Below are positions 76 through 20,757 of a stretch of DNA of 39,066 nucleotides, in pieces. Location of the stretch: assembly GCA_947458405.1 (NCBI GenBank), contig CANGZW010000021.1, positions 1 to 39,066 of the forward strand, in the 5' to 3' direction. Both the position numbers and the translations under genes were made by a program. The first letter of the stretch is position 1. Each line of letters begins with the position of its first letter. The notes under the pieces are model-generated. The model saw nothing but the letters and a program-made list of their open reading frames with translations. It was not told where the DNA came from and ran no database searches. Source of the stretch: Leptospiraceae bacterium. GTDB lineage: Bacteria > Spirochaetota > Leptospiria > Leptospirales > Leptospiraceae.

Positions 76-270
76 GTGCCTTTGAGTGGAAAAGACATGC
101 TAAATCTTTATCTAAAGCAAGGTTGGGTTATTTTAAGACAAAAAGGTAGCCACTTAATCTTAGGTAAAGGAAATGATAGAGAGACTATTCCTATGCATAA
201 AGAACTTAAGAAGGGATTAGAAAAAAGTCTTTTAAAGAAATTAAAACTTAAAGGAGATAAAGATAAGTAA
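76..270 (+). CDS. hicA: HicA mRNA interferase toxin
   Basis: This 64-residue protein matches the HicA family, a double-stranded-RNA-binding-fold toxin that cleaves mRNA. Visible features are the N-terminal LSGKDML helix start, the GW turn and the QKGSH motif whose His26 corresponds to the catalytic histidine. The GTG start at 76 is preferred to the ATG at 97 because it keeps the family's N-terminal LSGK segment, and because the promoter's -10 box lies 6 bases upstream. The stop codon overlaps the hicB start by one base (TAATG), which implies translational coupling. Length is normal for HicA. Confidence 0.9.
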   Translation: MPLSGKDMLNLYLKQGWVILRQKGSHLILGKGNDRETIPMHKELKKGLEKSLLKKLKLKGDKDK

Positions 271-695
271 TGCAATATCATTTTAAGATATATAAAGAAA
301 AAAATGGTTACTGGGCAAAATGTATCGAATTACAAGGATGTAATACTCAAGCAGATACTTTAGAGGAATTAAAAATAAATTCAACTGAAGCTCTTAATTT
401 ATTCTTGAATGAAACATTTGATTCTAAAACTATTTTTCCTCTTCCTAAAATAAATTATAAAGGAAAAGATATAATCAAAGTTCAAGTTAATCCTAAAATA
501 GCATTTGCTCAAATTCTTAGAATGGAAAGGCATAAACGAGGATTAAGTCAAAAAGAAGTGGCTGATATGATTGGTTTAAAGAATCTATATAGTTATCAAA
601 GACTTGAATCTCCCAAAAGTGCAAATCCAGCTTTATTAACAATCTCCAAGATCAAACAAATATTTCCTGATTTAAAATTAGATTTAGTTGTTTAA
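270..695 (+). CDS. hicB: HicB antitoxin with C-terminal HTH
   Basis: This 141-residue antitoxin partners HicA. The N-terminal half is a partial RNase H-like HicB fold (YHFKIYKEKNGYWAKCIELQG, with the family's aromatic and GC motif). The C-terminal half, about residues 88-135, is a helix-turn-helix of the XRE type (RMERHKRGLSQKEVADMIG). The HTH probably represses the operon through the palindrome at 53-64. It directly follows hicA with a one-base overlap. The start codon is fixed by this overlap. Confidence 0.9.
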   Translation: MQYHFKIYKEKNGYWAKCIELQGCNTQADTLEELKINSTEALNLFLNETFDSKTIFPLPKINYKGKDIIKVQVNPKIAFAQILRMERHKRGLSQKEVADMIGLKNLYSYQRLESPKSANPALLTISKIKQIFPDLKLDLVV

Positions 696-760
696 GCCTG
701 AATATTGCTAGAGCCATAACTAATAAAACACCAGCCTCAATAGATCAGCTACTCAATAAC

Positions 761-783
761 GTTATGCGAGCTTCGAGCATAAC
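761..783. other. Hairpin between hicAB and doc modules
   Basis: A perfect 7-base stem, GTTATGC (761-767) and GCATAAC (777-783), encloses a 9-base loop. No T-run follows, so it is not a standard intrinsic terminator. It may mark the boundary between two TA cassettes. The AAC/GTT-type ends loosely resemble recombination core sites, but no second site supports that. Confidence 0.35.
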
Positions 784-820
784 CATCTTTCGAAACTGAT
801 TGTATAATCAAAAAAAATGA

Positions 821-859
821 TTGACTGATCCATTGTTATAACATATATTATAACAATGG
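821..859 (+). promoter_or_regulatory. doc-module promoter with long palindromic operator
   Basis: TTGACT (821-826), a 17-base spacer and TATATT (844-849) form the promoter. A perfect 12-base inverted repeat, CCATTGTTATAA (830-841) and TTATAACAATGG (848-859), covers the spacer, the -10 box and the start codon at 856. This is the expected place for an autorepressing AbrB-type antitoxin to bind. The -10 box ends 6 bases before the ATG, which again predicts a leaderless mRNA. Confidence 0.75.
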
Positions 860-1095
860 AAACTTCTTCAGTTAAAAAAACTACGATTCGGGCAATTGGA
901 AATTCAGCGGGTGCTACCATTCCAAAAGTCCTTTTAGAAAAATATAATTTTCATGAAGGTGATACAGTATTTCTAATAGAAACAGAAAATGGAATTCTCT
1001 TATCTCCTTATGACCCTGAATTTGAAACTTCAATGGAGTTTTACCAGGAGGCATCTAAAAAGTATAGAAATGCTCTTAAAGAACTTGCTAAATGA
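856..1095 (+). CDS. AbrB/MazE-type antitoxin of a Doc module
   Basis: This 79-residue protein has the SpoVT/AbrB swapped-hairpin signature: RAIGNSAGATIPKVLLEKY followed by the GD turn and a hydrophobic strand. It is a DNA-binding antitoxin. The tail, about residues 55-79, is charged and helical and should neutralise the toxin. The 3' end overlaps the toxin gene by 4 bases (ATGA). In the classic P1 module the Doc partner is Phd; pairing with an AbrB-fold antitoxin is a known variation. The long palindrome over the start codon is the likely autoregulatory site. Confidence 0.85.
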   Translation: METSSVKKTTIRAIGNSAGATIPKVLLEKYNFHEGDTVFLIETENGILLSPYDPEFETSMEFYQEASKKYRNALKELAK

Positions 1096-1484
1096 AGTCA
1101 GAACCGAAATGGTTAAATAAGAAAATTGCTGAGGCGATTCATCTTGATCAAATTAAACAACACGGGGGTTCTTTGGGTATTCGGGATGAAGGTTTGTTAG
1201 AATCAGCACTAGATAGACCAAAGAATACATGGTACTATCATCCTAAATCTACCATGTTTGAACTTGCTTCTTCTCTTGGAATAGGCATTGCTAAAAATCA
1301 TCCTTTTATAGATGGAAACAAGAGAACTTCCTTTCTTTTTATGTATGTTTTTCTTGCAATGAATGGATTTAAAATTGAAACTTCAGAGAACGATGTTGTT
1401 CAAGTAATGTTAAAAGTTGCAGATGGATCAATAAAAGAATCTGCTTTGGCAAAGTGGCTCGAGAAAAATTCAATTCTAATTTAA
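1092..1484 (+). CDS. doc: Doc-family toxin (Fic fold)
   Basis: This 130-residue protein matches the death-on-curing family, which phosphorylates and inactivates elongation factor Tu. The central motif HPFIDGNKRT starts at His70. The GNKR form, with Lys77 where AMP-transferring Fic enzymes have Gly, is typical of Doc kinases. An N-terminal region containing HGGSLGIRDEGLLESAL is also characteristic of the family. It is translated from an ATG overlapping the antitoxin stop. All expected catalytic residues are present, so it looks active. Confidence 0.9.
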   Translation: MKSEPKWLNKKIAEAIHLDQIKQHGGSLGIRDEGLLESALDRPKNTWYYHPKSTMFELASSLGIGIAKNHPFIDGNKRTSFLFMYVFLAMNGFKIETSENDVVQVMLKVADGSIKESALAKWLEKNSILI

Positions 1485-1915
1485 TAGGTACTACATTATC
1501 TTCATTAAAGGAGTTTTAAAAAAAATATGTAATAAATTTCCAACCCCCATAATTTCTTCAATTCTTAGAGAAGAGTTTCTTTAACTTATTAATATTCCTT
1601 GATATAAACTATAAAAAAAACTGTAAGTCTCTACTTCTAATATTTTAGATATTATACATGGACGAAGATAAATTACTTTGGATATTCTATGAGTCTTTCG
1701 AAATTCTTTGGCATGTACTAACTTTTTTTAGAAAGTCAACTTAGATGAAAAAGAAAACTTGATATGGACTTTAGATAAAAAAATTACCGGCATTTTAAAT
1801 AAAAATGAATTGTATAATTCGAAGATATAAACGTTAGGTGAAAGCCATTCAAAAAATCTTAATATATAATTGACAATTTGAATAATTATGAATATATTTG
1901 AGACGAGGTAATTTA
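1485..1915 (+). pseudogene. Intergenic stretch with a small decayed reading frame
   Basis: This 431-base gap has no intact gene. An ATG at 1658 opens 28 codons (MDEDKLLWIFYESFEILWHV and onward) ending at 1744. The adjacent frame then runs from 1741 to a stop at 1828-1830 (LDEKENLIWTLDKKITGILN and onward). The two pieces read like one small acidic/aromatic protein broken by a single-base indel in a T-run. I do not recognise the protein. The rest of the gap shows nothing else I can name. Confidence 0.3.
1870..1898 (+). promoter_or_regulatory. Promoter of the RHH/RelE module
   Basis: TTGACA (1870-1875), a 17-base spacer and TATATT (1893-1898). The palindrome AATTG-a-CAATT (1868-1878) overlaps the -35 box and could be the operator for the ribbon-helix-helix antitoxin. 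Transcription would start near 1905, at the GAGGT sequence that precedes the start codon. Confidence 0.6.
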
Positions 1916-2155
1916 ATGAAAACTATTACAATTCGAGTTGATGAAACTGTGTATAATTTACTAAAAAAAGCAGCAGATGGAGAGAGGCGTACGATCTCTA
2001 ATTTTATCGAAAATGCTTCCCTTTCTTATCTTACAAATGAAATCTATGTTTCTGATGATGAAATGGATCAAATTTTAAATGAACCTTCACTTGTGAGAAG
2101 CCTAAAAAAGGGGATGGATGAGGTAAAGAAAGGCAAGTATAAAATTGTTAAATAA
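1916..2155 (+). CDS. Ribbon-helix-helix (CopG/RelB-like) antitoxin
   Basis: A 79-residue protein starting MKTITIRVDETVYNLLKKAA, the typical beta-strand then two-helix RHH DNA-binding fold. The acidic C-terminal part (SDDEMDQILNEPSLV) would wrap the toxin. The start is placed at ATG 1916 rather than the in-frame TTG at 1898, because GAGGT (1905-1909) sits 6 bases upstream of 1916 and the TTG overlaps the -10 box. It overlaps the downstream toxin by 11 bases. Its role is antitoxin and probable repressor of its own promoter. Confidence 0.8.
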   Translation: MKTITIRVDETVYNLLKKAADGERRTISNFIENASLSYLTNEIYVSDDEMDQILNEPSLVRSLKKGMDEVKKGKYKIVK

Positions 2156-2420
2156 CTTTGAAATTGCAGAAACGGAAAGTTTTATTTCTAAAATTGAAGA
2201 TAGAAAATTTAAAAAGATCTACCAAAAAATTAAAGATTATGTGTACCCTCAGTTGAGATTGAATCCTTTTTTTGGAAGTAATATTAAAAAATTGAAGGGC
2301 GAATTTGAAGGAATTTATAGGTATCGAATAGGTGATAATCGAATATTCTATAAAATTGAAAATGATAAAGTATTAATTATAGTCCTTGATATCTCTGATA
2401 GAAAAGATGCTTATAGATAA
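2145..2420 (+). CDS. RelE/ParE-family toxin
   Basis: A 91-residue protein with the RelE/ParE fold pattern: an N-terminal strand and helices (IYQKIKDYVYPQL), then the family's core GSNIKKLKGEFEGIYRYRIGDNRIFY and a final strand LIIVLDISDRKDAYR. Such toxins cleave mRNA on the ribosome (RelE) or poison gyrase (ParE); the sequence does not separate the two. The start is a TTG at 2145 overlapping the antitoxin gene by 11 bases, with AAAGG at 2129-2133. No better start exists in frame. Confidence 0.8.
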   Translation: MLNNFEIAETESFISKIEDRKFKKIYQKIKDYVYPQLRLNPFFGSNIKKLKGEFEGIYRYRIGDNRIFYKIENDKVLIIVLDISDRKDAYR

Positions 2421-2830
2421 AAGAACCAAACATTTACCTAATAATCAGGCTCGATTCTTTTATTCTATTTGAATGTATGATAGGAAGAGAAGTATAGAAA
2501 ATGATAACTGAACGTCTCCTAAATTTTAGGACATTTTTTTATGTATCTCAGAGAATCAGTAAATATCAAAGTATTGCGAAGATTCATTTAAGAAAGAAAA
2601 AAGAAATAATATTCGTATTTCTCTGAGAAATTATTTAAATTCTTTTCTTATATATTTAATTCACATATCAAAATGTACTACACATATTTTTTTTGGTTTG
2701 TATCTCTGTCTTGATATTTATATTTAAGTCTATCGATAAGATTTATAGTTATTATAATTATATATAACAGAATAACATTTTCAATTTTATTTATTTATGA
2801 TTGAAATATATTTCGAAGTATGTATATTAG

Positions 2831-2901
2831 AGGTTAGATGCAATACACTGAAAAAATATTATAGAATCTATTCTTTAGGAATAGATTTTTCCATCTAACC
2901 T
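2831..2901. other. Nested 71-base stem-loop
   Basis: The outer stem AGGTTAGATG (2831-2840) pairs exactly with CATCTAACCT (2892-2901). GAAAAA (2850-2855) can pair with TTTTTC (2886-2891). Inside lies a perfect 9-base hairpin, AATCTATTC (2865-2873) with GAATAGATT (2879-2887), around a 5-base loop. The last pairing overlaps the second by two bases, so not all pairs form at once. It could be a small structured RNA or a miniature inverted-repeat element. No T-run follows on either strand. Confidence 0.5.
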
Positions 2902-2971
2902 AACTCGTTATAATAAATAAAAACTTAATTAAAACTGATAAATTAATAATAGAAATAAAAAAAATATGCAC

Positions 2972-3000
2972 TTGACAACATATGTCTTAGATGAAATAAT
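2972..3000 (+). promoter_or_regulatory. Promoter of the HigB-like/XRE module
   Basis: TTGACA (2972-2977), a 17-base spacer and AATAAT (2995-3000). The 8-base palindrome ACATATGT (2978-2985) in the spacer is a possible operator for the XRE antitoxin. The -10 box ends 6 bases before the ATG at 3007, and no Shine-Dalgarno sequence is present. Confidence 0.65.
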
Positions 3001-3006
3001 TACTTT

Positions 3007-3348
3007 ATGTGGCAAATATTACAAACGGAAGAATTTGGAGAATGGCTTTTAACTCTAAATGAAACCTGTAATGAAGATATTTATGCCAATGTTACTATTT
3101 TAAGTGTTCATGGACCTTCATTGGGAAGACCAAGGGTTGATACAATAAAAAATAGTAATTTTAAAAATATGAAAGAATTGAGAGTTCAAAGTTCGGGTAA
3201 TCCATATCGAATTTTCTTTGCATTCGATCCCGAAAGAAAAGCAATTTTACTGATTGGTGGAAACAAAAAAGGTGATAAACGTTTTTATGAAAAATATATA
3301 CCTATCGCTGATAAACTTTTTGAAAAATATCTGGAGGATATGTCATGA
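3007..3348 (+). CDS. HigB-like (Gp49/RelE superfamily) toxin
   Basis: A 113-residue protein with the phage-derived Gp49-like/HigB pattern: EFGEWLLTL at the N-terminus, then LGRPRVDTIKNSNFKNMKEL, the core strand LRVQSSGNPYRIFFAFDP, and the ending ILLIGGNKKGDKRFYEKYIPIADKLF with pieces of the family's typical GNK motif. These toxins act as ribosome-dependent or free mRNA interferases. The toxin gene comes first and the antitoxin second, the reverse-order arrangement of higBA modules. The antitoxin start overlaps its stop by 4 bases. Confidence 0.85.
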   Translation: MWQILQTEEFGEWLLTLNETCNEDIYANVTILSVHGPSLGRPRVDTIKNSNFKNMKELRVQSSGNPYRIFFAFDPERKAILLIGGNKKGDKRFYEKYIPIADKLFEKYLEDMS

Positions 3349-3668
3349 AAAATAAAAAAAAGTATACCGACTTCTTTGAAAGTGCTAAAAAAACAATGTC
3401 TACTGAAAGTATTGAAAGGGCTCAAATCAAAGCTAATAAATTTATTTTTAATATGAAACTCGCAGATCTAAGAAAACATTCTGGAGTTAAACAATCTGAT
3501 ATTGAAGGCTTTAGTCAAACAAGTATCTCCAGAATTGAAGGAAGAGATGATATTAAATTATCTACACTCGTTGACTACATTCATGCTTTAGGAATGGAGA
3601 TAGAAATTAATGTAATTAACAAAAAAATAAAAAATCAGAATAAGAAAATATTATTAATGAAAGCTTAA
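3345..3668 (+). CDS. XRE-family antitoxin (HigA-like)
   Basis: A 107-residue protein with an N-terminal helical extension (residues 1-35) and an XRE helix-turn-helix at about 38-85 (LADLRKHSGVKQSDIEG, then TSISRIEGRDDIKLSTLVDY). The wording MEIEINV near residues 86-92 is common to HigA-like antitoxins. It neutralises the preceding toxin and probably binds the ACATATGT palindrome in the promoter. The C-terminal tail is rich in Lys and Asn. Confidence 0.85.
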   Translation: MKNKKKYTDFFESAKKTMSTESIERAQIKANKFIFNMKLADLRKHSGVKQSDIEGFSQTSISRIEGRDDIKLSTLVDYIHALGMEIEINVINKKIKNQNKKILLMKA

Positions 3669-3810
3669 TATAAAAATTCCTTTTATAGAAAATGAGAATG
3701 AAATTTTTTTAAAAACAATTTACCCAAGTCGTAAAGATAGATACAATAGCAGACGAGAAAAAATAAAGGCAATTCACTATGTCAGAAAGAACCCTAATCA
3801 AAAATATTAG
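3667..3810 (+). pseudogene. Probable 3' remnant of another small gene
   Basis: Between the XRE antitoxin and the dihydroorotase-like gene, one frame stays open to a stop at 3808-3810 and reads protein-like (IPFIENENEIFLKTIYPSRK and onward). It has no start codon: the previous in-frame stop is at 3658. The TIYPSRK wording resembles the last strand of small toxin folds such as DUF4258 or BrnT proteins, but this is weak. I infer a decayed tail of a further TA gene; a chance open frame remains possible. Confidence 0.3.
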
Positions 3811-5125
3811 CATCGTTAACGAAAGACAAACTATCATATCAGACCTACTCATTGACAATGGAATCATTCAAAAGATAGGACAACTTGGTGATGACCTAAA
3901 TGCAAGTATAATTGATGGAAATGGAAAGTATCTATTTCCGGGGATCATAGATGGACAGGTTCATTTCCGTGAACCGGGACTTACTCATAAAGCTGACCTT
4001 TACACAGAGAGTAAAGCGGCCATTGCAGGTGGTGTGACTTCTTTTATTGATATGCCAAATACAAAGCCAAATGTATTGACGATGGAAATCCTAAATGAAA
4101 AATACCAAATTGCTTCTGAAAAATCTTTAGCGAATTTCGGTTTCTTTTTGGGTGTCAATGGTGACAATCTTGATTATGTACTCAATCTTGATACATCCAA
4201 ACTGTTGGGCGTATCTGATGATGGACTTTACTTTACCAAAAAAGGAAATCTACTTGCCGACAATCCAAAAACAATGGAAAGGCTTTTTGCAAACTGCAAA
4301 TCCATCATTGCAATACATTCCGAGAAAGAGCAAATTGTAGATGAGAACGAGAAACTTTACAGAGAAAAATATGGTGAGAATGTTCCGATGGAGTATCACC
4401 CCATCATAAGAAGCGAAAAAGCCTGTTATGAAGCAACGCAAAGAGCAATAGACTTAGCCAATCAGTACAGAGCACGCCTTCATATTCTTCACCTGTCCAC
4501 TGAAAGAGAGACACATCTTTTTAGAAATGATATTCCCCTAAAAGAGAAAAATATAACTACTGAAGTATCGGTTCATCATTTGTGGTTTTGTGATAAAGAT
4601 TACGAGCGTTTGGGAACACTAATAAAATGGAACCCTGCTATAAAAACAGAAAAAGATAAACAAGGACTTTTTAAAGCATTATTGGATGATAGAATTGATA
4701 TCATAACTACAGACCATGCACCCCATACGTTAGACGAAAAACAAAAACCTTATTTTCAATCCATGTCGGGTGCACCAATCGTACAACATTCGTTTAATAT
4801 TATGCTGGAATTTTACAAACAGGGACTGATATCGTTAGAGAAAATAACAGAAAAGATGTGCCACAATCCAGCAATACTATATAATATTGAAAAAAGAGGT
4901 TATATACGGGAAGGATACTTTGCAGACCTAACAATTGTTGACATGAACTCAAGTTCGACAGTTGAAAAAAAGAATATACTCTATAAATGTGGCTGGTCTC
5001 CGTTGGAAGGAACAACTTTTCAAACCAAAGTTACTCATACATTTGTGAATGGTAATTTGGTTTATGAGAATGGGAAATTCAATGAATCAATCAAGGGGCA
5101 GGCATTAAAAAAATCAATTGAATAA
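3779..5125 (+). CDS. pyrC: Dihydroorotase-like amidohydrolase
   Basis: A 448-residue amidohydrolase-superfamily enzyme related to type I dihydroorotase, the third step of pyrimidine synthesis, and to allantoinase/hydantoinase. Visible metal and substrate motifs are DGQVHFREPG (residues 58-67), IAIHSE, HILHLST and TTDHAPHT with its catalytic Asp. The first His of the usual HxH pair is Gln60, a variant I associate with Bacteroidetes-type dihydroorotases. AAAGG (3763-3767) lies 11 bases before the ATG. It is not next to other pyr genes, sits in an accessory island and may be transferred. A carbamoyl-hydrolase role other than PyrC cannot be excluded. Confidence 0.75.
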   Translation: MSERTLIKNISIVNERQTIISDLLIDNGIIQKIGQLGDDLNASIIDGNGKYLFPGIIDGQVHFREPGLTHKADLYTESKAAIAGGVTSFIDMPNTKPNVLTMEILNEKYQIASEKSLANFGFFLGVNGDNLDYVLNLDTSKLLGVSDDGLYFTKKGNLLADNPKTMERLFANCKSIIAIHSEKEQIVDENEKLYREKYGENVPMEYHPIIRSEKACYEATQRAIDLANQYRARLHILHLSTERETHLFRNDIPLKEKNITTEVSVHHLWFCDKDYERLGTLIKWNPAIKTEKDKQGLFKALLDDRIDIITTDHAPHTLDEKQKPYFQSMSGAPIVQHSFNIMLEFYKQGLISLEKITEKMCHNPAILYNIEKRGYIREGYFADLTIVDMNSSSTVEKKNILYKCGWSPLEGTTFQTKVTHTFVNGNLVYENGKFNESIKGQALKKSIE

Positions 5126-5173
5126 TATGAAAATTAGATAGTATAAATACTTATTAAAAAAATCCAGATTACC

Positions 5174-6010
5174 ATGTTTCAAGGCAGAAAAATCATAATC
5201 GCTACCAAGCATCATAAAGAAAAAGTGATTGCTCCCATCTTTGAAAAAGAATTGGGAGTGAGTTGTTTTACAGATAACACTTTTGATACAGATTTACTAG
5301 GAACTTTTACGGGTGAAGTAGAAAGAGAACAGGATCCAATTTCAACTGCCAGAGAAAAGTGTTTGCAAGCAATGAAATTAAACAACTTTGATTTAGGTAT
5401 TGCAAGTGAGGGTTCGTTCGGACCCCATCCATCCCTGTTTTTTGTCAGTGCAGATGATGAGTTTTTAATTTTTATTGATACAAGAAATAACATAGAAGTT
5501 GTGGTGAGAGAATTAAGTACATCTACTAATTTCAATGGCAAACAAATTCAATCACAAGAAGAACTAATTTCATTTGCCAAAGTCATAGGCTTTCCTGAAC
5601 ACGGGTTAATCCTACGCAAATCAAAAGACGAAAATTTGGATATTCACAAAGGAATAACAGATATTGATACACTAAAGAAATCATATAAAGAGCTTTCCTC
5701 CAAGTACAAATCTATTTATGCAGAAACAGACATGAGAGCGATGTACAACCCAACACGTATGAATGTAATACGAGAAGCAACTAAAAAGCTAATTCTAAAA
5801 ATTAAATCAACCTGTCCTCAATGTCAAATGCCGGGCTTTGGAATTACCGATGCCAAAAAAGGACTTGAGTGTAGTTTATGTGGATCACCAACAAATTCAA
5901 TCCTGAGTTACATTTATGTATGTCAGCATTGTCAATTCACAAAAGAGGATATGTATCCAAATAAAAAAACATCAGAAGACCCCTCGTACTGCGACTACTG
6001 TAATCCATAA
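5174..6010 (+). CDS. DUF6671-like zinc-binding protein
   Basis: A 278-residue protein. The N-terminal two-thirds (residues 1-200) is a mixed alpha/beta domain with motifs HHKEKVIAPIFEKELGV, FDTDLLGTFTGE, TAREKC and LGIASEGSFGPHP. The C-terminus (about 207-278) carries four cysteine pairs (CPQC, CSLC, CQHC, CDYC), which predict two zinc ribbons. This matches my memory of the DUF6671 family, which has no established function. It follows the dihydroorotase-like gene by 48 bases and may be co-transcribed. The ASEGSFGPHP loop looks like an active-site or ligand-binding turn, but this is inference. Confidence 0.65.
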   Translation: MFQGRKIIIATKHHKEKVIAPIFEKELGVSCFTDNTFDTDLLGTFTGEVEREQDPISTAREKCLQAMKLNNFDLGIASEGSFGPHPSLFFVSADDEFLIFIDTRNNIEVVVRELSTSTNFNGKQIQSQEELISFAKVIGFPEHGLILRKSKDENLDIHKGITDIDTLKKSYKELSSKYKSIYAETDMRAMYNPTRMNVIREATKKLILKIKSTCPQCQMPGFGITDAKKGLECSLCGSPTNSILSYIYVCQHCQFTKEDMYPNKKTSEDPSYCDYCNP

Positions 6011-6170
6011 AATCAAAACAAAATATTAAAATTTAGAAAACTAAAAATAATCATTTAAACAATACAAAAATAAATTGCAAAATAAATCCGTCCTCTTTAA
6101 AATCAATATGTATGAATAGTAAATACAAATCGGAATTAGAAAATTCCCTAAGAAGGAAATATTTAAACTA

Positions 6171-6914
6171 GTGAAAAAAGAAAAAGGTATCACTCGATTC
6201 TTTGGTGCTAATTTAGCCGAAATGCTTTCTGATAAAATCTCCGAAGTTTATAAAGATTTTAATAAAAAAGAATATATAAAGGCAATCCATACTAATTGTG
6301 GAAATCTAACTTATACCCAAAGAATAGAACTGCATGCAGAAGTGTTAAAATTGCATCTTCCAAAAAACTATAAGAGAGCAGTGAAAATTTTGATGAATAT
6401 CTTGGGTGAAGAAAATAAAAAAGAAACAGGAATGTTCAAAGAGTTCTATTGGATTTTACCAATTGGGAAGTACATAGAAAAATATGGTTTGGAGAATTTA
6501 GAGATTTCCATAAATGCCATCGAAGAAATAACAAAAAGAAATACAGGTGAGTATGCCATCAGACCATTCATTCGAAAGTACCCTGAGGAAGTATTAGCTG
6601 TAATGATAAAGTGGGCTCAATCGGAAAATTTTCATTTGAGACGATTGGCAAGCGAAGGACTAAGACCCAAACTTCCCTGGGCTACAAAATTGGACATCTT
6701 TACTGATGACCCTACACCGGTATTTAAGATATTGGAATTGTTAAAAGAAGATGAGATTCTTTTTGTAAAAAAATCAGTTGCAAATCATTTGACTGATTAC
6801 TTGAAAGTAAACAAAGATCCAACGGTTAAACTAATACAAAGATGGAAAGCGTCAGACAATATTCATACAAATTGGATTATCAAAAGAGCTACAAGAAAGA
6901 TAAGCATTGATTAA
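6171..6914 (+). CDS. AlkD-like HEAT-repeat DNA alkylation repair protein
   Basis: A 247-residue all-helical protein resembling the AlkD/COG4335 branch of HEAT-like DNA glycosylases, which remove bulky or cationic alkylated bases without base flipping. Supporting motifs are ENFHLRRLASEGLRPKLPWA (near residues 162-181), VKKSVANHLTDYLKVNKD and the terminal HTNWIIKRATRK. The start is a GTG at 6171; AAGGAA about 13 bases upstream is a poor ribosome site, so the start is uncertain. Length is normal for the family. Predicted substrate and activity are by family only. Confidence 0.7.
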   Translation: MKKEKGITRFFGANLAEMLSDKISEVYKDFNKKEYIKAIHTNCGNLTYTQRIELHAEVLKLHLPKNYKRAVKILMNILGEENKKETGMFKEFYWILPIGKYIEKYGLENLEISINAIEEITKRNTGEYAIRPFIRKYPEEVLAVMIKWAQSENFHLRRLASEGLRPKLPWATKLDIFTDDPTPVFKILELLKEDEILFVKKSVANHLTDYLKVNKDPTVKLIQRWKASDNIHTNWIIKRATRKISID

Positions 6915-6997
6915 ATAAAGGTTTCCAAATAAATTAAGAAAATTTATAACTTATAGTAAAGTAAAAACTTAAAACATTAACTATCATATTGAATAAA

Positions 6998-7402
6998 ATG
7001 AAAATATTCTTACTAGATAAAATAGATAAAAAAATACTACTCCTAGATAGCTTGGGAGCGTTACTAACAGCAATCAATTTATTGGTTATCCCACTTCTTG
7101 AGAGCTATACAGGAATACCAAGAGATATTGCTATAATTTTGGTTCCACTCCCAATTCTATATTCTATTTTTTCTTTTTTATCCTATAAATTTGGTAATCA
7201 TAACTGGAGATCGTTGTTAAAAATGATTGCAATCGCTAATTTAATTTATTGCTGTCTTACACTTTATGTAACTTGGATTAATTTCGATACGTTTAAAATT
7301 TTAGGAATTATATATTTTATTGTTGAGATAATTATTATTATAATACTTGCAACTTTAGAATTAAAAATTGCTATAAATCATAATGAACTAAAAAATAAAT
7401 AA
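6998..7402 (+). CDS. Small four-helix membrane protein
   Basis: About 134 residues with four hydrophobic segments: near LLLDSLGALLTAINLLVIPLL, IAIILVPLPILYSIFSFL, LLKMIAIANLIYCCLTLYV and ILGIIYFIVEIIIIIILATL. The pattern matches small uncharacterised inner-membrane proteins. ATG 6998 is used; an in-frame TTG at 6989 adds three residues. No clear ribosome site is visible for either. Function is unknown. Confidence 0.6.
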   Translation: MKIFLLDKIDKKILLLDSLGALLTAINLLVIPLLESYTGIPRDIAIILVPLPILYSIFSFLSYKFGNHNWRSLLKMIAIANLIYCCLTLYVTWINFDTFKILGIIYFIVEIIIIIILATLELKIAINHNELKNK

Positions 7403-7553
7403 AATTTTATTTACAAAAAAATATCATATATATTGAAATCCACTCGGAACTTTTAGATTTTATTATGATTACAAATTTAAAAAACATGAATTGATGTCTA
7501 AAAAGTCATTAACTTTGATTGACTAAATATGACCATTGTAGTTACATAAAATT

Positions 7554-7850
7554 ATGATTTCCGTAGGTATTAGAGAGTTAAAATCACATTTAAGCCAATA
7601 CATAGAATTGGTAAAAAATGGAGAGAATATTATAATTACTGAGCACAACAAGGTTGTTGCTGAGCTAAAGACTCCTGAACCAAACAAGGCTCAGGAAAAT
7701 GAAGTACAGAAAATTTTGAATAAATTAATGGATGAGGGTAAAATTATTCCCGCTAAGAGAAAAAAGGAAATTATTTCTACTAAGGGTAAATCCTTAACGA
7801 AACAAAAGGAATGGTGGGGTTTGTATCAAAACTCCAAAGAGGAACTATAA
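7554..7850 (+). CDS. Phd/YefM-type antitoxin
   Basis: A 98-residue antitoxin beginning ISVGIRELKSHLSQYIELVK, the Phd/YefM DNA-binding fold, followed by GENIIITEHNKVVAELK. The C-terminal part (KGKSLTKQKEWWGLY) would bind the toxin. It lies 8 bases before a PIN-domain gene, a usual pairing. TTGACT at 7519-7524 is a -35 candidate, but the matching -10 is weak; no Shine-Dalgarno sequence precedes the ATG, as in the other TA modules here. Confidence 0.85.
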   Translation: MISVGIRELKSHLSQYIELVKNGENIIITEHNKVVAELKTPEPNKAQENEVQKILNKLMDEGKIIPAKRKKEIISTKGKSLTKQKEWWGLYQNSKEEL

Positions 7851-7858
7851 TCTATTAA

Positions 7859-8296
7859 ATGATACAGTATATAGAATCAAGTTTACTCTTATCATTGATT
7901 TTAGAGGATGAATTCCAAGAAAAAGCCTCAATTATCTGGAATCAAAAACATGAAAATGTAAGTTCCATTCTTACATCAATAGAGACTACCATTGTTGTAA
8001 GACGTTTTTTCAAATTAAATAAAAGTAAATTGCCCCAAAATTGGCTTTCAAAAAATGAAAAAAAGCTGAAAGAATTACTCTCCGAATGCTCGCTTGTCAA
8101 AATTGATGAGAGTATTCTTTCTATACTTGAATTAAAAAAAGATATCTCAGAATGTCGATCTTTAGACGCTATTCATATAGCTACAGCAATTTTCTTAAAA
8201 AACTATTTCAATGAATCAAAATTGCTTTTCTATAGCTTTGATAAAAGAGTCAACGAAGTAGCAAAAAAATTTGGCTTAAAACCGCTAGATGTATAA
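7859..8296 (+). CDS. PIN-domain ribonuclease toxin (VapC-like)
   Basis: A 145-residue PIN-domain protein, predicted to be a Mg2+-dependent RNase. Visible family positions are the N-terminal MIQYIESSLLL, the middle Glu in TSIETT, SLDAIHIATAIF and YSFDKRVNEVAKKFGL near the end. The first acidic residue, normally Asp in YLDTS, is Glu6 here; activity may be altered. The start ATG lies 8 bases after the antitoxin stop. A decayed paralogous module lies at 16993-17379. Confidence 0.85.
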   Translation: MIQYIESSLLLSLILEDEFQEKASIIWNQKHENVSSILTSIETTIVVRRFFKLNKSKLPQNWLSKNEKKLKELLSECSLVKIDESILSILELKKDISECRSLDAIHIATAIFLKNYFNESKLLFYSFDKRVNEVAKKFGLKPLDV

Positions 8297-17427: not shown

Positions 17428-17829
17428 ATGGAACCATTAAAAGGCAGAAGATTTGATGAGAGCTTTAAGAGACTAGTAATAAAGGAGATAAATGAGGGGA
17501 AATTCACTCCAGCCGAAGCTGAAAGACATTATGGGATTAAGGGACATAGTACGGTAAATAAATGGTTGAAAAAATATTCTAAGGAAGGTTTAAATCGTAA
17601 AAAGGTAATAGAGAGATTGGAAAAAGAAGAAACAAAAGTTGAGAAATTAGAACACAGAATAAGGGAATTAGAGAAAGCCTTATCTGATTCTATGATTGAA
17701 AATTTGGTAAACAAAGAATTAGTAAAACTTGCAAAGATACACTATGGTATAGATTTAAAAAAAAACTCCGATATGAATGTCTCGAATCAATCATTCGGAG
17801 TAACGATAAAAAGAAAAAAAGACCAATAG
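17428..17829 (+). CDS. IS3 transposase OrfA
   Basis: A 133-residue protein. The N-terminal helix-turn-helix (FDESFKRLVIKEINEGKFTP, then AERHYGIKGHSTVNKWLKKY) binds the IS ends. A leucine/glutamate-rich coiled coil (about 70-105) should mediate dimerisation. AGGAGC (17417-17422) is the ribosome site. Near its end is A7 (17814-17820) read as A-AAA-AAA, an expected -1 slip site that fuses OrfA to OrfB. Confidence 0.9.
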   Translation: MEPLKGRRFDESFKRLVIKEINEGKFTPAEAERHYGIKGHSTVNKWLKKYSKEGLNRKKVIERLEKEETKVEKLEHRIRELEKALSDSMIENLVNKELVKLAKIHYGIDLKKNSDMNVSNQSFGVTIKRKKDQ

Positions 17830-18647
17830 TACGAATTTGCGAATACCTAGAAATCACTCCTCAGGCTTACTACAAGCATCTTAGAATAGAACAAGAGAGT
17901 AATGAGAAATTACTCCTCTTGTTAAATGAGATTAAACGAATCAGATTGCTAATGCCTAAGTTAGGCACAAGAAAAGTATATCAGTTATTGAAAGATACTA
18001 TCAAAGAATTAAGCCTGAAAATAGGGCGCGATAAACTCTTTAAAATACTCAGAGAAAATGATATGTTAATAAGAAGAAAAAGAAGGAGCATAAAAACAAC
18101 TAATTCTAATCATCAATTTAGAAAATATAAGAATTTGATAAAAGATGAAGAAGTGAAGAGGAACTATCAAGTATTGGTATCGGATTTAACATATATCCGA
18201 GTAAATGAAAAATTCATGTATCTTACACTAGTAAGTGACTATCAATCAAGAAAGATAATAGGCTATAATTTAAGTCATGACATGACAGTTAGAAGTTCAA
18301 TAGAATCTTTGAAAATGGCTATTGGGAATCTAAAGGGAGATAAAGAAGTGATACATCATTCTGACAGAGGAATTCAATATTGTTCATTAGATTATACTAA
18401 TATATTAATTAAAAATAATATAAAAATTAGTATGACAGAAGAGAATCATGCTTATGAGAATGCTACGGCTGAAAGGATAAATGGAATTCTCAAAGGTGAA
18501 TTTTCTCTAGATTCAGTTTTTACATCGAGAAGAGATGCAGCGATGGCAGTGGACAATGCAATCCATATCTATAATAATCTTAGACCTCATATGAGCCTCA
18601 GTTATAAAACCCCAAGTGAGATATATAAGAGTGTAAACTTTTTTTAG
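17820..18647 (+). CDS. IS3 transposase OrfB (DDE integrase)
   Basis: The catalytic subunit, in the -1 frame relative to OrfA. Written here from the predicted slip site; the frame has a TTG at 17919 as its first plausible independent start (242 residues). It contains the IS3 helical region (RPIVRICEYLEITPQAYYKH) and the rve domain with the DDE triad: VSDLTYIRV (Asp), HHSDRGIQY (Asp) and NATAERINGILKGEF (Glu). The triad and the final NNLRPHMSLSYKTPSE motif are intact, so the element may be active as an OrfAB fusion. Confidence 0.88.
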   Translation, partial: RPIVRICEYLEITPQAYYKHLRIEQESNEKLLLLLNEIKRIRLLMPKLGTRKVYQLLKDTIKELSLKIGRDKLFKILRENDMLIRRKRRSIKTTNSNHQFRKYKNLIKDEEVKRNYQVLVSDLTYIRVNEKFMYLTLVSDYQSRKIIGYNLSHDMTVRSSIESLKMAIGNLKGDKEVIHHSDRGIQYCSLDYTNILIKNNIKISMTEENHAYENATAERINGILKGEFSLDSVFTSRRDAAMAVDNAIHIYNNLRPHMSLSYKTPSEIYKSVNFF

Positions 18648-18656
18648 GACTTGACA

Positions 18657-18841
18657 ATATGTTTGGTAAACTAATATTGGTAATCGGATAGTGTGCTATT
18701 TATTATAATAAGTTTACTTATTAGTTATTGGATACTGGTTACTGTATAGTTGGTTTCGAGATGGTTCCCGAGCCTGAGTCGAGGGACAACCAACGAATTT
18801 TTTTTGTTAGAAGATATATTTTATCTCATACTATAAAAATA
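18657..18841. other. Noncoding region with terminator-like hairpin
   Basis: No gene. GTTGGTT (18749-18755) pairs with AACCAAC (18788-18794) around a loop that contains further short complementary pieces (CGAG, CCCGAG, GTCGAG). An eight-T run follows at 18798-18805, so on the + strand it has the form of an intrinsic terminator. Its G+C is higher than its surroundings. The loop wording, with GAGCCTGAGTCGA, resembles widespread palindromic intergenic repeats. Confidence 0.5.
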
Positions 18842-19140
18842 GTAAACGTATACTGGTAACTATAAAGTTACCCCTCTCTGTTGCGTCTCTTTTTAAACGT
18901 AATGGAGAGGCGGTGTATGCAGATTTGTAGTACAAAACAGTATAATAGGGGTGAGGTAATAATGATCTAAAATTTTTAAAAGAGTCTAGGTTTTCAAGCG
19001 TTATACACAGAAAAGTCCAGTGGATCGAGCGCCGTGATGAGCCTGTCGAATTATGCGGGCGTACTACATTTAGACTTTTCTATTATTGGAAAAATTCCTA
19101 GTAAACAAAAAATCTGCCAGTGTGTATCTAGACCCCGCGT
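18842..19140 (+). repeat. rpn-associated structured repeat, copy A
   Basis: About 300 bases, closely similar to 20368-20640. It begins GTAAACGTAT, then has palindrome GTAACTATAAAGTTAC (18856-18871) and a 14-base stem, CCTCTCTGTTGCGT (18873-18886) with ACGTAATGGAGAGG (18897-18910), which pairs fully if G-U pairs are allowed. Later shared blocks include TCAAGCGTT, CTATTATTGGAAAAATTCCT and CCAGTGT-GTAT-GAGACCCC-like text. Here it is not directly followed by an rpn gene. Confidence 0.75.
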
Positions 19141-19369
19141 ATACAGACAAATTCTGTATTTCGGCATCTCGATACATCCGCGAGAAGATGCGGATACTCG
19201 ATGACCGTACATTTTTGTATAGAGGTGATTGAGAGAGATACTGTTAATAAAGAGATTTATGCGTAGTACGTCTAGCTATACAGAAAGGTTCGGTGGTCGA
19301 GTGCTCTGCTTAAACTAGAAAGATAAGCAAAATCAAAAAAGTTAGGCAGAGTGTATCGAGACCCCCGTA
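19141..19369 (+). repeat. Partial repeat end joined to the rpn 3' side
   Basis: The section 19282-19369 repeats the last part of the element (GTTCGGTGGTCGAGTGCT, later GTGTATCGAGACCCCCG) and runs directly into the rpn stop codon, as copy B does. CTCTGC (19303-19308) and GCAGAG (19346-19351) form a stem within it. At 19162-19207 another imperfect hairpin contains ATCCGC/GCGGAT. No coding sequence is visible. Confidence 0.6.
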
Positions 19370-20296
19370 TTACAAAATCCCATTCTCTTTCAGCTGGTCA
19401 TCCGATAGCCCTGTAATGTCCTGAATCTCAGAGACCGAAAATCCTTTTACTTTCATTTTTCGCGCGGTTTCGAGTGCTTTTTCCAGTTTACCCTTTATCT
19501 CACCTTCTAACTTTCCTTCAAGCTTTCCTTCTAACTTTCCTTCTTCCCTAATTTTTTCTAATAAATTCATGTAATCACCCTCAATTTCTTTTATAATTTC
19601 TCTTTTGGTGTATTTATCTGCGTCGTTTCTGGCTCTAAACAAATAATCTAACAGGTTCTTAAGAATGTAAATTCTTTTTGCTTCTTCTTTTTCTTCTAAA
19701 ATGGAAAGATAAATTTCTTTTATATGCTTGAGAAACATTTCTGGCTTATCCCGAATAATCTGAATCATTCTCATGTAGAGCCTGAGAGCCAAGTTTTTTG
19801 TTTGAAATGTATCTCCTCCACTTTTTAGTTCTAAAAGTTGAATTGAAAAATTAGGGATGAATTTTAGAAATTCATCTGGAATCGAGTTATATTCAAAACT
19901 TTCCAAGAAATTTTGTCCTAGGTCCCATCCTTTTTTCCCATGATAGAATACAAATGGAATGACTATTTTTAAATCTTCATTACCCATTTTTTGCCAGGTG
20001 TAAATCTTTGAAAGATACTCCAAGATCTGGGTAAAAATATTTGGATCATAGTAACTTTTGTGTTCAAAGAGCAGGTAAATATAGACAGGAGTTCCTGATT
20101 TTAGTGGTATTTTAAAGAGAAGATCTGTTCTGGATTCATCCCCGTCATTTCCGATGAAAGTTTCTTTGGTGAGTTCTAGTTTTTCTAAATCCAGCAAATT
20201 AGTAGTACTTTTCGGCAAGGAACCATCGAAAAAATCAATCGCTTCGGTAAGATTAGAAAGAAATCCTTTTACGAATAGGTCGTGAGAAGATGGCAT
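19370..20296 (-). CDS. Rpn-family PD-(D/E)XK nuclease
   Basis: A 308-residue protein of the Rpn/YhgA-like family (recombination-promoting nuclease, also annotated as PD-(D/E)XK transposase). The opening SSHDLFVKGFLSN and the nuclease core RTDLLFKI...YLLFEHKS give Asp58, Glu78 and Lys80. Helical middle region to about 225. A variable EGKL-type repeat tract (about 250-270) links to a C-terminal module ALETARKMKVKGFSVSEIQD and onward. Rpn proteins promote RecA-independent recombination in E. coli. Its 3' side abuts a structured repeat, duplicated beside a truncated second copy. Confidence 0.85.
   Translation of the reverse strand: MPSSHDLFVKGFLSNLTEAIDFFDGSLPKSTTNLLDLEKLELTKETFIGNDGDESRTDLLFKIPLKSGTPVYIYLLFEHKSYYDPNIFTQILEYLSKIYTWQKMGNEDLKIVIPFVFYHGKKGWDLGQNFLESFEYNSIPDEFLKFIPNFSIQLLELKSGGDTFQTKNLALRLYMRMIQIIRDKPEMFLKHIKEIYLSILEEKEEAKRIYILKNLLDYLFRARNDADKYTKREIIKEIEGDYMNLLEKIREEGKLEGKLEGKLEGEIKGKLEKALETARKMKVKGFSVSEIQDITGLSDDQLKENGIL
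19504..19539 (-). repeat. 12-base tandem repeat inside rpn
   Basis: Three units of a 12-base sequence of the type CTTCTAACTTTC (19504-19515, 19516-19527, 19528-19539) encode EGKL repeats in the linker of the Rpn protein. In-frame units can be gained or lost by slippage without changing the reading frame, so linker length may vary between strains. Confidence 0.75.
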
Positions 20297-20367
20297 AATA
20301 GGGATAGCTTTATTTTTTAGAGAAAAAAGGCAAGAAAAATAAACTAATGTTTAGTATAATAATGTTG

Positions 20368-20640
20368 GTAAACGTATAATGGTAACTATAAAGTTACCCC
20401 TCTCTGTTGCGTCTCTTTTTTAACGCAATGGAGAGGCGGTGTACACTAAAATGTACTACAAATCTAAATAGTGGGGGTGAGGTACATTATATCTAAAAAC
20501 TTAAAGAAAGTCCTGATACTCAAGCGTTGTACACAAAAAAGTTCGGTGGTCGAGTGCTGGCATGACACAGATAATTTAATCTATTATTGGAAAAATTCCT
20601 AGTAAATAGAAAATCCGCCAGTGTATCGAGACCCCCGCAC
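20368..20640 (+). repeat. rpn-associated structured repeat, copy B
   Basis: Second copy of the repeat of 18842-19140. Palindrome GTAACTATAAAGTTAC is at 20382-20397. The stem CCTCTCTGTTGCGT (20399-20412) pairs with ACGCAATGGAGAGG (20423-20436). One stem base differs from copy A (ACGC against ACGT), changing a G-C pair to G-U, so pairing is kept in + strand RNA. It runs into a truncated rpn 3' end. 20297-20367, upstream of the intact rpn, shows nothing else. Confidence 0.75.
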
Positions 20641-20757
20641 TACAAAATCCCATTCTCCCTAAGTTGATCTACTGAGAGACCTGTAATTCGGATGATTTGC
20701 TCTGGATTAAAGCCTTCATCTTTCATTTTTTGGGCGGTTTCAAGTGCTTTTTTTAGT
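20640..20757 (-). pseudogene. 3' remnant of a second rpn gene
   Basis: The minus strand reads KKALETAQKMKDEGFNPEQI, then IRITGLSVDQLRENGIL and a TAG stop. It matches the last 37 residues of the Rpn protein at 19370-20296 with a number of substitutions. The rest of the gene is missing, and 20758-20943 holds nothing recognisable. The repeat-plus-rpn unit was therefore present at least twice. Confidence 0.8.

Follow-up and report, generated by a model that had tools for sequence, protein, structure and literature searches.

The structured repeat that flanks the rpn nuclease gene in the window (the whole stretch of Leptospiraceae DNA analysed, 39,066 nucleotides) is very probably a non-coding palindromic intergenic element with a MITE-like architecture and the words of a triplex repeat, which was presumably multiplied with rpn by array duplication. 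The element spans at least two genera of one Leptospirales family independently of rpn, and is often found just past a stop codon. The rpn nuclease family is thereby separated from the repeats that surround it, which represent a palindromic element with triplex words common to related genera, and this element becomes a concrete, testable candidate for a source of instability beside the phage-defence arrays of rpn. Two of its features deserve attention in themselves: it can lie exactly flush with stop codons, and its stem tips change in concert.

Repeat modules and rpn genes in the window

A repeat of about 300 bases, present twice and with its end a third time, had been described in an initial annotation, and copies and ends were found as described. 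Positions 18833-19023 match 20359-20549, and 19054-19123 match 20555-20624, both with 79% identity, while the third end, 19350-19417, matches 20620-20687 with 82%. The duplication is real, but the 300 bases do not form a single unit; 48 partial blast matches in the genome of the window (G000, 3.94 Mb in 198 contigs, which are given C-numbers below) split into modules. The core arm (M1), a right arm detected by blastn and a covariance model on the plus strand, occupies 18842-18960 in copy 1 and 20368-20486 in copy 2, the latter about 71 nt upstream of an rpn start. The stretch from there to rpn is made up of individual REP-like hairpins, of which copy 1 contains three and copy 2 a single one, so that the two copies are unequal in length. 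On the plus strand of copy 1 these are an M2 hairpin with an extended loop (19017-19134), an M3 hairpin of the form CTCGATAC-tip-ACTCGATGACC (19168-19206), whose motif also occurs in other Leptospirae genomes, and a second M2 hairpin (19290-19363) located 6 nt from the rpn stop codon. The M2 hairpin of copy 2 (20543-20633, plus strand) lies between the core arm and a truncated rpn. M1 gave 26 blast matches in the genome and 29 with the covariance model, inverted arms included, corresponding to about 25 core copies.

Both core copies hold a short plus-strand palindrome, GGTAACTATAAAGTTACC (18855-18872 and 20381-20398), with the 16-base palindrome GTAACTATAAAGTTAC at 18856-18871 and 20382-20397, followed directly by a 14-bp covarying hairpin on the plus strand (18873-18910 and 20399-20436), which agrees with the palindrome and 14-base stem noted previously. 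The element end TACCTCACCCC is found on the minus strand at 18948-18958 and 20474-20484. This exact end occurs 27 times in the genome, compared with once for the reversed pattern, and the window has two occurrences of CCTCACCCC where 0.06 would be expected. Upstream of copy 1, a plus-strand remnant of the inner part of the left arm (18657-18721), with 91% identity to the left arm at G000:C12, adjoins IS3-type transposase ORFs (17428-18647, plus strand) with HTH_Tnp_1 and rve Pfam matches.

The repeat ends were also said to run into the 3' ends of two rpn genes, one intact and one truncated, and this was confirmed for both genes, which lie on the minus strand. The intact gene (19370-20296, 308 aa) encodes a PD-(D/E)XK nuclease (PF04754, E=1e-44; TIGR01784), while the truncated one (20640-20757) is an RpnS-like remnant of 38 codons with the C-terminal domain alone. 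RpnS is an antitoxin derived from the Rpn C-terminus, which also exists as separate genes (PMC10327210). Judged by its sequence, the intact gene belongs to the Rpn family, with the PF04754 domain, FEHK and GKLEGKLEGKLEGE, an ExK motif, KLEG repeats and, probably, an internal RpnS start at the ATG at 19570, which follows GAGGG. The PD-(D/E)XK N-terminus, the KLEG four-residue repeats, the internal start, the standalone C-terminal copies and the tandem arrays all resemble the Rpn/RpnS genes-within-genes (PMC10327210); unlike here, a word search of the main text of that paper gave no palindrome and no noncoding repeat. The genome contains 22 PF04754 matches, and the rpn C-terminal domain was found at 43 places. 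The RpnS-like C-terminal domain is about twice as frequent as the PF04754 nuclease domain and often forms a short ORF or remnant, and at C41 and C32 it comes after N-terminal parts lying in another frame. Elsewhere in the window, at 76-8296, gene pairs resembling toxin-antitoxin systems by sequence appearance (HicAB, AbrB/Doc, RelBE, HigBA and Phd/VapC types) are arranged in series.

A palindromic element with two ends and a covarying stem

M1 was found to be one arm of a palindromic element of about 222 bp, which is ordered as TACCTCACCCC - hairpin - spacer - hairpin - GGGGTGAGGTA, M1 terminating in GGGGTGAGGTA. Full or nearly full copies number five: those at C75, C180 and C82 and two less perfect ones at C144 and C192. 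The arms are about 73% inverted-repeat, the terminal repeats read (TA)CCTCACCCC...GGGGTGAGG(TA), and the longest open frame is 50 codons. Next to the ends there is mostly a TA or a comparable dinucleotide; no duplication could be told apart from the terminal inverted repeat, and no clean target-site duplication was found in G000. In a weakly supported tree of the arms, full-length copies group together and the rpn-linked arms do not form one clade. A nested insert, TTGTGGTGAGC...CGAACCA, is carried by some copies. The nested palindrome TTGTGGTGAGCG(N)AG(N)CGAACCA was observed at an identical point inside the hairpin at C41:9260, C39:1, C70:930 and C192:2668, and twice at C192.

The covariance model proposed in the initial annotation was built, and its helices covary in further copies. 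An earlier version (R1), made from an RNAalifold consensus, was dropped as inserts spoiled the structure, and the second version (R2) was used. In 14 insert-free copies the named helices are paired in 93.5% of cells. In the core stem of these copies, both partners have changed in seven pairs. The covariation of 0.246, versus 0.103 after shuffling, was reached by none of 500 shuffles, and shifting the helix partners abolishes the signal. The base of the hairpin is conserved while the tip covaries, with variants such as GTTGCGT/ACGCAAT, GTTTCGT/ACGAAAT, ATGCCAT/ATGGCAT and GTCTCTG/CAGAGAT. Pairing is therefore kept by selection or by another force. Such a force could be template-switch correction of quasipalindromes during replication, changing the tips in concert without selection on structure. 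This is possible though doubtful, concerns the covariation alone and is compatible with a MITE-like element; it would fit the arbitrary but self-complementary tips of both the core element and the REP-like hairpins, while the tandem G-U at the stem base is left uncorrected in most copies.

It had been argued that the single stem difference between the window copies, ACGC against ACGT, keeps a G-U pair in plus-strand RNA and hints at selection on RNA structure. The G-U pair is indeed kept on the plus strand, and across copies a plus-strand G-U stands where the minus strand would have A-C in 25 cells versus 1, mostly in two inherited columns. Copies without the nested insert also fold better on the plus strand, except that at C180. 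A plus-strand structured RNA that partners or regulates rpn, as an antisense RNA, an antitoxin or a 3' UTR element, would account for these features and for the covariation. Yet the G-U argument for the strand is weak. The stem of the sister genus described below is a near-perfect palindrome with about equal energy on both strands, and the G-U pairs were for that reason not taken as proof of plus-strand RNA. Furthermore, each form is present on each strand of the full element, which is palindromic with an inverted arm; a search of the repeat against Rfam matched no known RNA; promoter-like sites are near the chance level; and the element is not restricted to rpn. Such an RNA is very unlikely. 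What stood of the argument is the maintenance of pairing rather than its strand.

Occurrence beside rpn and independently of it

When 120 genomes were searched with the covariance model of the arm, matches were obtained only in G000 and in three genomes of one sister genus of the same family (G003, G006 and G007; E 5e-5 to 5e-3), the latter confirmed by a second search. No match to PF04754 was found in these three. Occurrence of the repeat without rpn had been named beforehand as evidence against a dedicated link, and it is what these genomes present. In the sister genus the element is compact, 105-135 bp with both ends: CCTCACCCC - CCCCTCTCCATTGCGG-tip-CCGCAATGGAGAGGGG - GGGGTGAGG. Three of its seven copies abut the stop codon of a gene at gap 0, for example as TAG|CCTCACCCC or TAA|CCTCACCCC. 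A start of the element 0-2 nt past the stop of the upstream gene, an unusually precise placement, was observed at three sister-genus loci (L153, L151 and L148) and at two on viral contigs (L173 and L174). A pattern scan of viral contigs found element words in unrelated contigs with unrelated tips, including two copies on L173 that directly follow a stop codon (gap 0); being selected by pattern, these serve only as a lead. A blast search of plasmids with the element, or with an actinobacterial REP, found nothing.

In G000, association with rpn is strong but not exclusive. By pattern and similarity searches, some of which scored part of their candidates, a convergent rpn stop lies outside 12 of the 27 exact element ends, at a distance of 6-10 nt in seven of them, with one further, partial case at C169. 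About 0.15 would be expected by a rough estimate (43 rpn 3' ends, within 1 kb, 3.94 Mb, one orientation), and this excess, far above what passive insertion would give, speaks against the palindromic element favoured here. A blast check of each match for rpn 3' neighbours, as suggested earlier, revealed the clustering at rpn 3' ends together with several copies at unrelated genes: no rpn lies directly beside the element at C82, C191, C192 or C147, nor on the outer side at C127, and unrelated genes are found there. The repeat thus occurs independently of rpn, at unrelated genes in G000 and in a sister genus that has no PF04754 rpn, and does not qualify as an RNA partner dedicated to the nuclease.

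In at least seven copies, a shared leader of about 70 nt and an rpn start come next on the inner side. This arrangement, with a minus-strand -35/-10-like pair overlapping the palindrome in both window copies, would suit an arm that is retained because it serves as the 5' leader of the downstream rpn, the short palindrome acting as promoter or operator. Such a role, compatible with the palindromic element proposed here, seems unlikely: promoter-like sites are not enriched (11 versus 7.7 plus or minus 3.1), and the arm is equally present where no rpn start follows.

The initial annotation had further suggested that nuclease and structure may together make up a single mobile or recombination-promoting unit. 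In a unit of this kind, Rpn would cleave the hairpins while the flanking direct repeats drive array growth. Most intact rpn genes of the window's type carry an arm about 70 nt upstream, many also carry one after the stop, and Rpn has been described as an endonuclease that acts on DNA and is linked to recombination independent of RecA (PMC5350276). However, the copies at C82, C191, C192, C127 and C147 and the sister-genus elements without PF04754 rpn do not agree with one unit, the arm is found at junctions between different rpn types, and Zhong et al. found varying unit ends and no evidence for rpn transposition (PMC10327210). A single unit is thus very unlikely. The same slight probability is given to the related idea that Rpn nucleases cut or resolve the hairpins, direct arm copies around rpn acting as recombination sites; if true, recombination between arm copies would let the rpn defence arrays grow, contract and be reshuffled.

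The favoured reading, a palindromic element multiplied within rpn arrays, draws in part on how these arrays are built. Arrays of rpn form by direct duplication in tandem, with no terminal repeats involved (PMC10327210). In G000 their order is rpn - arm - rpn - arm, and C41 has different rpn types on the two sides. In G000, one arm may have ended up in a spacer between the genes of a tandem rpn array. Direct duplication and unequal recombination would then have multiplied it along with rpn, and REP-like hairpins unrelated to the arm would have piled up beside it. As single-stranded DNA the element might fold into a cruciform or triplex, or in read-through RNA into a hairpin, and it may promote rearrangement. 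Most likely it is palindromic and non-autonomous, and either inserts beside stop codons or persists there. Neither element nor Rpn would need the other.

Comparison with known repeats and candidate mobilisers

The element resembles bacterial MITEs (QMITE2, Correia, Nezha; PMC10969869) in being non-coding, under 500 bp, multicopy, intergenic and strongly folding, with inverted terminal repeats, here within 4-30 bp, and many truncated copies. It differs in that neither a parent insertion sequence, among the Y1 transposases searched, nor a clear target duplication was found for it. With 42.7% G+C in a window of 31% G+C, it is also not AT-rich, unlike MITEs.

Likeness to the intrastrand triplex repeats of E. 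coli (TM/PIT; Hoyne et al.; Holder et al. 2015, PMC4666352) was found in the order CCTCTC-loop-GAGAGG-loop-GGGTGAGG, with the third-strand T at the same place, and in the intergenic, multicopy occurrence as inverted pairs linked to genomic instability. CCTCTC, GAGAGG and GGGGTGAGG are invariant or nearly so in the element, and the required order of a pyrimidine stem, a purine stem and a purine third strand, each of 6-15 nt, is present on one strand. The loops of about 24 and 37 nt, however, exceed the 1-6 nt of that definition (0-10 in Hoyne), so M1 is not a TM/PIT member by PMC4666352, and this failure of the published limits speaks against the triplex part of the preferred explanation. Moreover, the first loop contains its own covarying stem, and the pairs make a two-ended element.

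With the terminal repeats of TIRYT (PMC3733652), which are double-palindromic with a motif fitting GGGGWSAS, the element shares a near-invariant GGGGTGAG and two adjacent palindromes, though it was not found to flank a Y1 transposase gene. Among 26 loci with Y1 (HUH) transposase genes in G000 and 40 relatives, none had paired element ends. A Y1 (RAYT/TIRYT) mobiliser was rejected: G000 has one weak gene with its own, different palindromes, and the 25 genes in relatives lack these ends. The missing parent transposase, with the Y1 families searched, and the absence of a clean target-site duplication in G000 weigh against the mobile character of the proposed element. At L097 (G000:C83), a Y1-type transposase gene has near-perfect palindromes (CCGTTGGGAATGCAGATCTGCATTCCCAACGG) after and inside it, at 1416-1447 and 1717-1748.

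The M2 and M3 hairpins resemble REP elements in their fixed base, variable stem and clustering downstream of genes, and differ in lacking a GTAG or CGTC tag in its published form and in having a base stem of TCGA/TCGA. The CGTC-REP class was rejected, as the stems do not begin with AT as published. An attC/integron reading was also rejected: although the conserved base and variable tip resemble those of attC, the core, inspected by eye, lacks the R-box words RYYYAAC/GTTRRRY. All REP-like hairpins combine the fixed TCGA base with an arbitrary self-complementary tip. Their simple form, CTCGATAC-tip-ACTCGAYGACC, was found in 8 of 61 genomes including G000, and the reversed pattern never. This hairpin, with a fully variable tip, was seen across the class and beyond, in G005, G006, G007, G017, G034, G040 and G053.
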